DNA from: Gemmata massiliana
GTDB lineage: Bacteria; Planctomycetota; Planctomycetia; Gemmatales; Gemmataceae
Assembly (NCBI GenBank): GCA_000531095.1
Contig: HG799462.1
Location: 871,551 to 935,550, forward strand
Length of the DNA: 64,000 bases
Direction of reading: 5' to 3'
Positions 25,192 to 38,088 of this stretch are shown in pieces. The notes below the pieces were generated by a model that saw only the letters and a program-made list of their open reading frames with translations, was not told where the DNA came from and made no database searches. A program made the position numbers and the translations under genes. Positions within the stretch are counted from its first letter, which is position 1; the number at the start of each line of letters is the position of its first letter.

Positions 25192-26121
25192 TTAGTTGCT
25201 GATGCTGGAGTAATCCGTGCTCTGGCCGTCCTGCATGCCGGCCATGCGCTGGAACGTGTACCAACTGTCGCTGTACCAGTCGGTGCTGGCACCGGAGAAC
25301 TTGCGGATCGTGCGGACGGACCCGTCGCACATCCCGAAGCACACGATCCCGGAGTGGTTGCTCGAGTAGTTGGTGAGCGAGCTGGTGGTCGGGATCGCCC
25401 ACGCCGTCGGGAGGTTGGACCCGCCCATCCAGCTCGAGACGAAGTCGCGGGTGCCGGGCGCGGTGCCGCCGAGGGTCTCGCCGAACGCGATCGTGTTGCT
25501 CGTCCCGTCCGTGATCCCGACGATGGTGGTCTTGGAGTTCTGCGTGTACGGCCCCTTCCACTGGTCCCAGAAGCTGTCGCCGGTCGCGCCGAGGGCGCCC
25601 GAGCTGGCCGCGTAGTTCGTGCGGCCCAGGGGCGTGGACGGGTCGAACCACGCATACGCGAGCGAGCCGGGGGTGGTGTAGTAGTACGCCATCACCCCGG
25701 TCGAGGGCGTGACGTCGGCCGTGTCCGACGGGCAGAGGAACGTCTTGATCCGGACCTGGGCCGGGCCGTAGGCCGAGCCCCACCACTCCCCGCCGGCCGC
25801 ACCGGGCGGGAGGATGAACTCGTTGGTCGGGATCTGGGTGTACACGTTGTCCTGCTCGATGTACGGCAGCAGGTACGCGAGCGTGCCTACGTAAGTGCTC
25901 ATGTTGATGCCCGGGGGCAGGTGCCCGTTGGCGCTGTCGTAACTGTGGGCCGCGAGGCTGATCTGCTTGAGGTTGTTCTGGCAGCTCATGCGCGCGGCGG
26001 CCTCGCGCACCTTCTGGACCGCGGGCAGCAGGAGCCCGATCAGGATGGCGATAATGGCGATCACCACCAGCAATTCAATGAGCGTGAATGCCGAGCGAAA
26101 ACGGCGCAGCCGAACCGACAT
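25192..26121 (-). CDS. DUF1559 family prepilin-like protein
   Basis: A 309-residue protein with a type IV prepilin N-terminus ([20 protein letters not shown]; the residue before the Phe is Ala, and Glu is at +5 of the mature form). The typical [18 protein letters not shown] helix follows, then the DUF1559 domain with LPPG and the C-terminal FGMCDGSVRTI. This family is expanded in planctomycetes and is of unknown function, probably forming surface or pseudopilus structures. The gene precedes a small lipoprotein on the same strand. Confidence 0.92.
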   Translation of the reverse strand: MSVRLRRFRSAFTLIELLVVIAIIAILIGLLLPAVQKVREAAARMSCQNNLKQISLAAHSYDSANGHLPPGINMSTYVGTLAYLLPYIEQDNVYTQIPTNEFILPPGAAGGEWWGSAYGPAQVRIKTFLCPSDTADVTPSTGVMAYYYTTPGSLAYAWFDPSTPLGRTNYAASSGALGATGDSFWDQWKGPYTQNSKTTIVGITDGTSNTIAFGETLGGTAPGTRDFVSSWMGGSNLPTAWAIPTTSSLTNYSSNHSGIVCFGMCDGSVRTIRKFSGASTDWYSDSWYTFQRMAGMQDGQSTDYSSISN

Positions 26122-31618: not shown

Positions 31619-32329
31619 TTACGCCAGTGCTACGGCTCGCTGGCGGCGCACGTATACGATGAGCATACCGGCACCAGTCACGAGCAGCACCCAGCTACTC
31701 GGTTCCGGGGTCGATACGGCGGTCGGGTTCGATGCGGGGGAGGGTGGGCGGGCGTCGAACCCGTCCGCGAAGCTCCACCCGTCCCACGAACCGTCCTTTA
31801 GTATGCGACCGGACATCCCCACCCCGCTGTAGCCCCAATCGGCGTCGCCGGGGTCTTTGGCCCAGTAGCTCCAGTACCCGGTCCACCACCCTTCGCGGTA
31901 GAGGTCGCCCGGGTCGGTCGGCGCCCGACCATCGGCCAGTCCGCCGTCCCGGTCCGCGGACGCGATCCCGTTCGTGAACGTGAGCGTCGGCGATACGCCG
32001 AACACGCCGTTGTGGTTCGCGTCGAACCCGATCCCGAACAGCGCGAACCCCAATCCCGGCCCGAAGTCCCCGAGGTTGGCGTAAAGTCCGGTGTTGGACC
32101 CGGTGATCGCCCGGAGCATGTCCTCCGCGGTCGCAGTGCCGTCCCACCGGTACCCCCAGATGAACGACGAGGTTCCGGACGCGGTCTTCCAGTCAACCAC
32201 GAACGCGGCGCGGTTGCTCCCGGTCCCCACCCACACGTCGACGTCATCAAGAGACGTAACGAACCCGGCCTGTGCGCTGCCTGCCAGCCCCAACAACACG
32301 CCGAGACAAAGAACTAACTGCCTGAACAC
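31619..32329 (-). CDS. PEP-CTERM surface protein downstream of a cobalamin riboswitch
   Basis: A 236-residue protein starting at GTG 32329, with GGAGG 8 nt upstream. A signal peptide ends near residue 21 (GSAQAG). The mature domain (about 25-200) is rich in Trp, Gly and Asp, with DVWVGTGSNRAAFVVDW, FIWGYRWDGTATAEDMLRAI and WWTGYWSYWAKDPGDADWGY. The C-terminus is a PEP-CTERM tail (TPEPSSWVLLVTGAGMLIV, then RRQR), which is processed by an exosortase and places proteins at the surface. The leader RNA carries a cobalamin riboswitch, so expression should respond to vitamin B12. A role in cobalamin binding or capture is my inference. Confidence 0.85.
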   Translation of the reverse strand: MFRQLVLCLGVLLGLAGSAQAGFVTSLDDVDVWVGTGSNRAAFVVDWKTASGTSSFIWGYRWDGTATAEDMLRAITGSNTGLYANLGDFGPGLGFALFGIGFDANHNGVFGVSPTLTFTNGIASADRDGGLADGRAPTDPGDLYREGWWTGYWSYWAKDPGDADWGYSGVGMSGRILKDGSWDGWSFADGFDARPPSPASNPTAVSTPEPSSWVLLVTGAGMLIVYVRRQRAVALA

Positions 32330-32660
32330 GCGAGCCTCCGTTCCCCAGTTCGGGGCCGCTCACCGCGTGCGGTGATGCGTCCGCCCGCTCCGGGACGTAA
32401 GCCGTTGGTGCCGGCGTTCTCGCGTTAATGGACCGGTGGAAGTCGCATTTCATGCGACTATCGCGAGGAGTTCGACCGGGGGAGACACGGACCGCGGCGC
32501 GGGCGCGCCGGGAACGGGAAACGCACGGGCTGCTCCTTCTTCGCCGGGCCGGGCGAGGAAACGCCTACGGACCGGGGTGGACGGGCAGCGCCGCGCACGC
32601 GCGCGGACAGAGACCTGCCGGTCCGGTCGCCTGGGGTCCGAGGCACCGAACGACGATCAC

Positions 32661-32830
32661 GACAGGCAGGTCTTCTGGCTTACGGCCTTTTGTCGGGTTC
32701 GAGCGGCCTTCCCGCGGTGCTCCGCAGTGGCATTGTGCCCGTTCCCGGCCGAATACAGCAGCGGCCCTGCGCCGGATTCTCACCGGCTTCCCTTTTCACC
32801 CCCGCCGCGAGAACGGCGGAGACACCTATC
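32661..32830 (-). promoter_or_regulatory. Cobalamin riboswitch
   Basis: Read on the minus strand, the segment begins GATAGGTGTC, has the core GGGAAGCCGGTGAGAATCC (the B12-box region GGGAA...CCGGTGA.AATCCGGC), a GCCGCTGCTGT segment, and ends GCCAGAAGACCTGCCTGTC, the conserved 3' part of cobalamin aptamers. The downstream gene on the same strand is the PEP-CTERM protein at 31619-32329. The 3' AGACCTGCC (32665-32673) can pair with GGCAGGTCT read from 32611-32619, a candidate switching helix. The remaining leader 32330-32610 shows a GC-only hairpin at 32591-32606 but no gene. Confidence 0.93.
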
Positions 32831-33067
32831 GAGTGGGGTGAGTTATACGCGACCAACACCCGGCGTCCAGAACTGTGGGCACCTTCACCGCACAATCATA
32901 TCTGACTCACGTTTGCGTGTTGCGGCGCGCAAACAAATAGCAACACCGGAGTGTCACGCCCTTCGGTGTGAGTTTTCGCCCGCCGGATTGCTTTCACCGC
33001 CCGGGACGGTTAGAGATGATGAGTGCCCGTGTTGCGTTGTTGAATTGATGGATTTGGTTTTTGTTTG

Positions 33068-33123
33068 GTGGCACAGGCCTCTGGCCTGTGTGAGTGCCTC
33101 CACAGGCCAGAGGCCTGTGCCAC
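33068..33123. repeat. Nested palindrome with 23-bp arms
   Basis: Arms 33068-33090 and 33101-33123 are perfect reverse complements. Each arm is itself a palindrome (CACAGGCC-TCT-GGCCTGTG), so one long or two short hairpins can form. It lies 31 nt before the start of the formylglycine-generating enzyme homologue. I recall similar CACAGGCC units as common spacer repeats in Gemmata-type genomes (recollection, unchecked). Confidence 0.75.
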
Positions 33124-37110: not shown

Positions 37111-38088
37111 TCACGGGTCGTTGGCCACGAGGCCGTCGTCACGGACGCACTGCTTCTGGAACGTGGCGAAGTCGATGCTGTTCGTGACGAACCGGACCGA
37201 CCCGTCGGTGCGCAGCGTGTTGATGCCGGCCGTGTGGTTGGAGTTCAGGATCGAGTTCCCCTTGTACGAGGTGTCCGAGCCGGCCGACGTCGCGGTCCGG
37301 GAGTTGATGGCGTAGGCGACGCAGGTCAGCCCCATGCCCCAGATGTCGCTCGACCCGGGGGACGAGATTTTCCCGGGGAAGGTGCAGCTCCCCCAGGGGC
37401 TGTAATACCCGTTGCGAATGTCCTGGGTGCCGACGAGCCCCGACTGTTCGGCTACGATGATCGTGTTCGAGGTGCCGTCCGTGCAGTCGGCGATGCGGGT
37501 CTGCTCGTTCGCCAGGAGCATCCCGTTCGAGGACCACCACCCGCCGTAGTTCGAGGCCAGGATCACGTTCGAGCGCCCCGTCGGGTCCGGGTACGCGCCC
37601 ATGATCCCGATGTACCCGGCCACTTGGTGATTGTTATTCGTCCACCACGTCACCCACGCGGCCGGTTGCGTGTCGGGCACGCTGGCGGACGGGCACTTCC
37701 AGATGGGCAGGACCAGGTTCTGAAGGACCGCGCTGTTGTAGACGTCGTTGATGTTCAGTTGCTTGTAGAGATTGTCCTGTTCCATGTACGGGAACATCTC
37801 GACGCGCCAGTTCGCGCTGGCCACCGAGGGGCCGCGCTGCCCCATCGGGAACTTCTGGTTGGCGCTCTCGTAGTTGTGCAGACCCAGCCCAATTTGCTTG
37901 AGGTTGTTCGAGCACTTCATGCGCGCCGCGGCCTCGCGGACCTTCTGCACCGCGGGTAGCAGCAGACCAATGAGGATCGCAATAATCGCGATCACCACGA
38001 GCAGCTCGATCAGTGTGAACGCGCGGGCACGGGTGCGCGACGGGGCACCCCCGCGGCGCGCGGGGAGACAACGGACCGTGTGAGACAT
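37111..38088 (-). CDS. DUF1559 family prepilin-like protein
   Basis: A 325-residue protein with an unusual basic leader of about 25 residues before the prepilin motif ([19 protein letters not shown]). [20 protein letters not shown] and the DUF1559 domain with [15 protein letters not shown] near the C-terminus follow. The cleavage-site residue is Ala instead of Gly. It is the first gene of a two-gene unit with the downstream transthyretin-like lipoprotein. An upstream gap of 282 nt (38089-38370) carries divergent promoters. Confidence 0.92.

Follow-up and report, generated by a model that had tools for sequence, protein, structure and literature searches.

A transcobalamin-like clade of the SLBB beta-grasp proteins was defined by Burroughs and colleagues in 2007, with planctomycete members for which a role in B12 scavenging was proposed, and a fusion to a beta-propeller in Clostridium was mentioned in the same work (PMC1796856). 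In the portion of that article available to us, no mention is made of riboswitches, PEP-CTERM tails or Bacteroidota fusions of the BtuG type.

Other surface proteins that bind B12 have been described in Bacteroides, namely BtuG, BtuH, BtuJ and BtuK1 (PMC12751083, PMC8941943, PMC10404256), BtuG and BtuH serving for B12 capture at the surface and being encoded in riboswitch-controlled btuB operons. In addition, B12 binding by DUF4465 proteins is known from several groups, one of the tested proteins coming from the planctomycete Mucisphaera calidilacus (PMC13398666).

Here we analyse a gene located in a 64,000-nucleotide stretch of Gemmata massiliana DNA (hereafter the window), encoding a PEP-CTERM protein preceded by a cobalamin riboswitch. 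Like this protein, BtuJ and DUF4465 proteins are associated with B12 and predicted to be exported, and some DUF4465 members carry C-terminal sorting tails (PMC12751083). They are described, however, as augmented jelly rolls in the sections at hand of PMC12751083 and PMC13398666, whereas our model of the window protein matches another fold, although the lack of a jelly roll in a list of fold matches is little evidence against one; a DUF4465 match was found in 0/80 members of its family at E 0.01. Likewise, the folds of BtuG and BtuH differ from it as far as those papers describe them, and the window protein lacks a propeller. Among the matches listed from the open-licence literature, no paper described a bacterial surface protein of PEP-CTERM or transcobalamin-like type under riboswitch control.

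Since bacterial transcobalamin-like scavengers had been predicted in 2007 and other surface B12 binders were already known, the window protein is best read as a variant of them. In this regard, the preliminary description had put forward a new type of B12-capture surface protein in planctomycetes. The capture reading gains support from the predicted fold, the riboswitch linkage and a B12 uptake operon described below, but the family extends beyond planctomycetes, and riboswitch-controlled surface B12 binders are not new.

The riboswitch and the gene behind it

A cmscan of the whole window returned RF00174 as the sole match above threshold (E 1.2e-27); it covers the complete model, and its 113.4 bits compare with a gathering score of 31.5 (Table 1). 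The aptamer announced in the preliminary description is thus real, but the interval given for it there, 32661-32830, was slightly short at both ends.

Table 1. Features of the riboswitch-controlled locus (window coordinates)
Feature	Position	Strand	Basis
Cobalamin riboswitch aptamer (RF00174)	32648..32844	-	cmscan, 113.4 bits, model 1-189
Leader from aptamer to start codon, 318 nt, presumed expression platform	32330..32647	-	Sequence
Aptamer 3' end AGACCTGCC, could pair with 32611-32619	32665..32673	-	9-base perfect complement
GGCAGGTCT, possible strand for switching by an alternative hairpin with 32665-32673	32611..32619	-	Hypothesis only
Coding sequence of the 236-aa PEP-CTERM protein, from the GTG start through the stop codon	31619..32329	-	ORF
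Probable signal peptide, residues about 1-21	32267..32329	-	Read from sequence by eye
Transcobalamin-like beta-grasp domain, residues about 34-191	31757..32230	-	AlphaFold2 model and structural alignment
PEP-CTERM sorting tail, residues 207-231	31637..31711	-	TIGR02595

Both the aptamer and the gene are kept in the congeners G302 and G304, and the leader between them is partly conserved there. The G304 leader (L102) additionally contains GC-rich stretches that are not present in the window leader. A consensus scan of 32300-33100 detected no sigma-70-like promoter and no terminator 3' of the aptamer on the gene strand, the single minus-strand terminator-like match in this interval being located upstream of the aptamer. 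The 9-base complement that could form an alternative hairpin at the 3' end of the aptamer is kept in the two congeners and has a shuffle P of 0.005. As a general expression platform of the family this hairpin was rejected, given that complements of at least 8 bases occur in 7/75 riboswitches against 5.0 expected.

A GGAGG motif stands just 5' of the GTG start codon. The protein itself was correctly recognized in the preliminary description: its PEP-CTERM tail scores 20.6 bits with NCBIfam TIGR02595, above the cut-off of 16, and 18.2 bits with Pfam PF07589, just below the gathering score of 20.7. No further Pfam family was detected in the protein at E 10. The genome (9.27 Mb in 22 contigs, 96.5% complete) encodes one copy of the protein, four RF00174 elements and three PF09721 exosortase matches, the best at E 6.2e-64.

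Direct matches to the protein were found in 10/294 planctomycete genomes, and an 80-row profile recovered 14 gene copies in 13/288, so most planctomycetes must do without the gene. Within the window's own family, true homologues are present in 4/95 genomes (the window genome G000, G302, G304 and G299); four further candidates, L104-L107, were rejected by eye as having only the PEP-CTERM tail in common or being read in the wrong frame. A contig scan yielded 263 matching stretches, 226 of which encode relatives. Among the best 80 of these 226 are members assigned by record title to Planctomycetota, Verrucomicrobiota, Kiritimatiellota, Armatimonadota (Fimbriimonadaceae and Chthonomonadaceae), Bacteroidota and Thermodesulfobacteriota (one Desulfosarcina). 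At E 0.01, the PEP-CTERM motif (12 members) is the only Pfam family found in more than one of the 80. In the 80-row alignment, W33, G35, G37, W62-D63-G64, W153, Y155, R175 and W182-D183 are strongly conserved. At E 0.01, 18/80 members weakly match the NCBIfam SCO2322 family (NF040672), with a best E of 3e-5; the window protein does so at residues about 152-190, scoring 17.4 bits against a cut-off of 85. These matches may hint at an actinobacterial relative.

Predicted fold of the domain

The AlphaFold2 model of the window domain, built with 80 rows, reached a pLDDT of 93.2 and a pTM of 0.90. In structural alignment it matched 14 PDB entries of intrinsic factor, transcobalamin and haptocorrin with Z 10.9-12.1 over 101-107 residues at 2.1-2.5 A, the aligned regions being the C-terminal beta-domains of these carriers at 8-13% identity. 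The best alignment was to the beta-domain of human intrinsic factor (Z 12.1, 107 residues, 2.4 A). PDB entry 3u7z, which we take to be a DUF4430 protein, scored Z 10.3, and the next row after the carriers and 3u7z scored 6.2. In line with this, the top 19 PDB rows of Foldseek were occupied by 3u7z, transcobalamin, intrinsic factor and haptocorrin; their E values of 0.23 to 1.1 are not significant by themselves, none being at or below 0.001.

The window protein carries an insert that is lacking in compact members of the family. For one of these compact relatives (L014), modelled with 36 rows to a pLDDT of 89.8, the same proteins filled the top 19 Foldseek rows at E 1.1e-3 to 0.1 and probabilities of 0.98-1.00, and structural alignment gave Z up to 12.2 with the next unrelated row at 6.8. 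With both models, the carrier matches score well above the ubiquitin-like and MoaD-like rows.

One feature of the transcobalamin-like clade is also recognizable: the glycine expected after the second strand is present as Gly64, directly past model strand 34-41 and invariant in 80/80 rows. In the model, a helix (47-56, model numbering) is followed by strands 61-67 and 74-81, which might represent the beta-hairpin inserted after the helix in that clade.

Sequence-level kinship is weak. Searching the PDB with the window protein gave nothing useful, nor did alignment A2, and the two matches obtained with alignment A1 (E 0.066 and 0.63) were judged to be chance. Comparison with DUF4430 by hhalign gave E 0.02 and a probability of 2% for the whole family, and E 4.6e-4, a probability of 33% and a collinear alignment over 94 columns for the compact members. 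The DUF4430 profile, in turn, found 3u7z in the PDB with no better than E 0.079 and no transcobalamin chain, and such sequence-profile tests are therefore insensitive here. The transcobalamin-like clade, represented by 3u7z, shares the predicted fold of our family, but a PF14478 match was present in 0/80 members of our family at E 0.01 and in none of the proteins of the window genome, and the profile link is weak.

Taken together, a transcobalamin beta-domain fold is well supported for the window protein by modelling, and common descent with that domain is likely, albeit not proved. The window protein thus shares with the animal carriers a predicted fold and a link to cobalamin, but it is bacterial, lacks the alpha/alpha toroid domain and ends in a PEP-CTERM tail. 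Transcobalamin uses two domains, whereas only the beta-half is seen here; in this regard, the title of PDB entry 5np4, human transcobalamin beta-domain bound to cyanocobalamin, suggests that this domain alone could hold the ligand.

Linkage to cobalamin riboswitches and gene context

An RF00174 element lies upstream on the same strand in 12/14 planctomycete gene copies (288 genomes), including G160, where a pilin-like ORF intervenes and the distance is 1.45 kb. The two copies without a nearby riboswitch belong to G185, with none in the genome, and G251, with one on another contig. Across the best 80 of the 226 relatives, 77 loci were counted, after dropping L029 and L083, whose contigs were judged from their equal length to be those of L007 and L008, and L073 (genome outside the riboswitch search); 48 of the 77 are from Bacteroidota. 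Within the sequence fetched for each locus, 71/77 have a same-strand riboswitch upstream of the gene, 27/29 outside Bacteroidota and 44/48 within, at distances of 62 to 7433 bases and at less than 1 kb in 20. Among the six remaining loci, the contig stops 0.2 to 4.5 kb upstream of the gene in L055, L064, L092 and L097, an aptamer lies instead some 1 kb downstream in L048 (Desulfosarcina), and L047 has none nearby. The preliminary description had linked its reading to whether homologues co-occur with cobalamin riboswitches or btu genes, and these counts, together with the btu operon of G299 (see below), bear that expectation out.

These counts combine two procedures. Direct cmscan of 29/77 loci agreed throughout (23/23 expected present, 6/6 expected absent upstream); in L034, RF00174 is outscored by AdoCbl-II, a model from its clan. 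The other 48 loci were assigned from coordinates plus a motif check, passed by 48/48; the motif expression missed 10/71 elements, all ten being confirmed by cmscan. Coordinates were matched without regard to contig identity, and direct scans exposed chance matches, upstream in L027, L066, L078 and L081 and elsewhere in L056, L088 and L092. Two sub-threshold RF00174 rows (24.0 and 24.1 bits) were excluded.

In genomes with a single detected RF00174, the element is upstream of this gene in 18/19, the filters applied being stricter and liable to miss weak elements. Genes of DUF4430, the established transcobalamin-like family, served as a control. They are present in 18/288 planctomycete genomes, and RF00174 was found within about 1.5 kb in 0/17 of the loci scanned, whereas the family of the window protein has a riboswitch in 11/14 with like flanks. 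The 17 control loci come from 25 (L108-L132), four of the remaining eight being further matches in scanned genes.

The Desulfosarcina cetonica aptamer belongs to a tandem of c-di-GMP-I and cobalamin riboswitches on one strand (L048:9398-9814), and 12 cobalamin riboswitches were detected in that genome.

Four arrangements of riboswitch and gene recur. As in the window, no same-strand ORF of at least 150 aa separates them in 19/71 loci, which indicates that the transcobalamin-like gene is itself the first target. A second arrangement places a pseudopilin gene between them, in ten loci by motif, in L043 by eye and in G299 and G160, the DUF1559 assignment being confirmed by Pfam in L040, L078, L088 and L167. 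In Bacteroidota, the order is riboswitch, btuB, a btuG-type gene, a gene for a protein of about 400 aa and the domain protein, as tested with Pfam in L030 (Plug, DUF5074) and deduced from gene lengths in the other loci. Lastly, in L024 and L034 a protein of about 320 aa intervenes. The two intervening proteins, encoded at L024:770-1705 (Phycisphaerae) and L034:6991-7989 (Fimbriimonadaceae), have no Pfam match and are homologous to each other (E 7e-30, 35% identity over 247 columns). A 405-aa protein precedes the domain in Flavobacterium and a 312-aa one in Phycisphaerae; it is doubtful that the two are homologous (E 0.005).

A BtuG-type propeller is in several cases fused to the transcobalamin-like domain. 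In Flavobacterium (L030), both form one protein encoded in a btuB operon; its order, which recurs in L082, is transcobalamin-like domain, DUF5074 propeller and T9SS tail, the tail scoring below the Pfam cut-off in L082. Other fusions C-terminal of the domain are DUF5074 plus Ig-like domains in L063, Ig plus LRR domains in L033 and Ig-like domains in L095.

The most informative context is that of G299, from the window's own family, where a single aptamer (L167, 776-978) is followed by eleven same-strand genes in the order DUF1559 pseudopilin, transcobalamin-like gene, DUF6580, btuF, btuC, btuD, cobU, btuF, bluB, cobT and cobS. Their order and spacing suggest a single transcript. The transcobalamin-like product is 60% identical to that of the window, and the FecCD permease and ABC ATPase are over the Pfam cut-offs and under the NCBIfam BtuC/BtuD cut-offs. 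In the window genome, the pseudopilin (L005), the window gene and the DUF6580 and BtuF pair (L003) form three units, each with its own RF00174. The L005 pseudopilin is 68% identical over 276 residues to the first gene product of the G299 operon, and the L003 products are 56% (DUF6580) and 71% (BtuF) identical to their G299 counterparts. DUF6580 is a candidate component of cobalamin transport. The fourth RF00174 of the window genome precedes the large subunit of ribonucleotide reductase (L004:1501-3212, contig C8), a classical target of cobalamin riboswitches. G302 has the same four units and G304 three of them.

Several side observations concern these units. The DUF1559 pseudopilin directly behind a cobalamin riboswitch (L005:1501-2629, contig C4) is an unusual riboswitch target, and the DUF6580 and BtuF-type binding proteins are encoded behind theirs at L003:2-1700 (contig C13). 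Two other DUF1559-type genes of the window, at 25192-26121(-) and 37111-38088(-), align well with L005 only in the N-terminal part. At L166:1926-2701 of G299 (contig C14), a further cobalamin riboswitch precedes a segment that aligns with the L005 pseudopilin at 45% identity over 144 residues.

A possible cobalamin-capture function and its alternatives

Our findings make it probable that the window gene encodes a surface cobalamin-capture protein with a transcobalamin-beta-like domain, switched off by its riboswitch when B12 is plentiful. This reading is supported by the predicted fold, by the riboswitch linkage in several phyla and by the B12 uptake and salvage operon of G299. The protein would be exported and sorted to the surface by exosortase, and its only folded domain would be a bacterial counterpart, in structure if not also by descent, of the beta-domain found in transcobalamin and intrinsic factor. 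With ample cobalamin, the riboswitch would shut the gene off, a direction of regulation suggested by the Bacteroides cobalamin riboswitches, whose reporters were repressed by B12 in the part of the study accessible to us (PMC12751083). When cobalamin is scarce, the protein would be made and reach the cell surface by means of its PEP-CTERM tail, where it would bind cobalamin or another cobamide and retain it near the cell. Uptake would then be accomplished by the riboswitch-controlled set of DUF1559 pseudopilin, DUF6580 protein, BtuF-type binding proteins and BtuCD.

As for the ligand, it is conceivable, if less probable, that a corrinoid precursor, cobinamide or a variant cobamide destined for remodelling is bound instead of complete B12. 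The presence in the G299 operon of cobU, bluB, cobT and cobS, which rebuild salvaged corrinoids, is in line with this notion. These salvage genes are nevertheless compatible with the uptake of any corrinoid, and the Bacteroidota locus L030 has btuB and BtuG-type uptake genes.

We regard as doubtful that the family is identical to the Bacteroides BtuK proteins. In the B. salyersiae locus L033, a first riboswitch precedes the domain protein and a second one precedes a TonB-type receptor together with a DUF5074 protein, an arrangement that recalls btuK1 opening operon 1 of B. thetaiotaomicron with a second riboswitch before btuB1, as outlined in the consulted part of PMC12751083. However, BtuK proteins are described as lipoproteins, whereas visual inspection revealed no lipobox in the L033 protein.

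It appears improbable that the protein is a member of the B12 regulon that does not bind B12, acting as a structural or adaptor part, for instance one that works together with the pseudopilin or a BtuG-type propeller. Protein binding is common among beta-grasp domains. Moreover, BtuL and BtuK2 of Bacteroides come from cobamide uptake operons and did not bind cobalamin, according to the available text of PMC12751083. Against this, the fold matches are to cobalamin carriers, well above the ubiquitin-like and MoaD-like rows, and the gene is itself the first riboswitch target in a quarter or so of the linked loci (19/71). Finally, the idea that the riboswitch is there by chance or for another gene, the PEP-CTERM protein being an ordinary matrix protein, can hardly be sustained: other genes do lie between riboswitch and gene in many loci and 2/14 planctomycete copies have none nearby, but the sole detected RF00174 precedes the gene in nearly all such genomes, the DUF4430 control gave none in the 17 loci scanned, and the G299 operon genes, split in the window genome, each keep their own aptamer.

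Returning to the surface capture of cobalamin, no TonB-dependent receptor plug domain was detected in the window genome, 96.5% complete, with three positive controls. We tentatively suggest that planctomycetes without the TonB plug may take up B12 without BtuB, a transcobalamin-like catcher and a riboswitch-controlled DUF1559 pseudopilin apparatus passing it on to BtuF, BtuCD and DUF6580. Planctomycetes encode DUF1559 proteins in very large numbers. Because of these numbers, and because the capture gene is present in so few planctomycete genomes, this route is offered as a hypothesis only.

The findings presented here connect the fold of the animal B12 carriers with a protein that is under riboswitch control and probably sorted to the surface, whose relatives belong by record title to six bacterial phyla and whose domain has no Pfam model among the 80 members scanned. 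They also name a set of genes that may serve B12 collection without BtuB, namely pseudopilin, transcobalamin-like protein, DUF6580 and BtuF, and they render the 2007 proposal of bacterial transcobalamin-like B12 scavenging directly testable.
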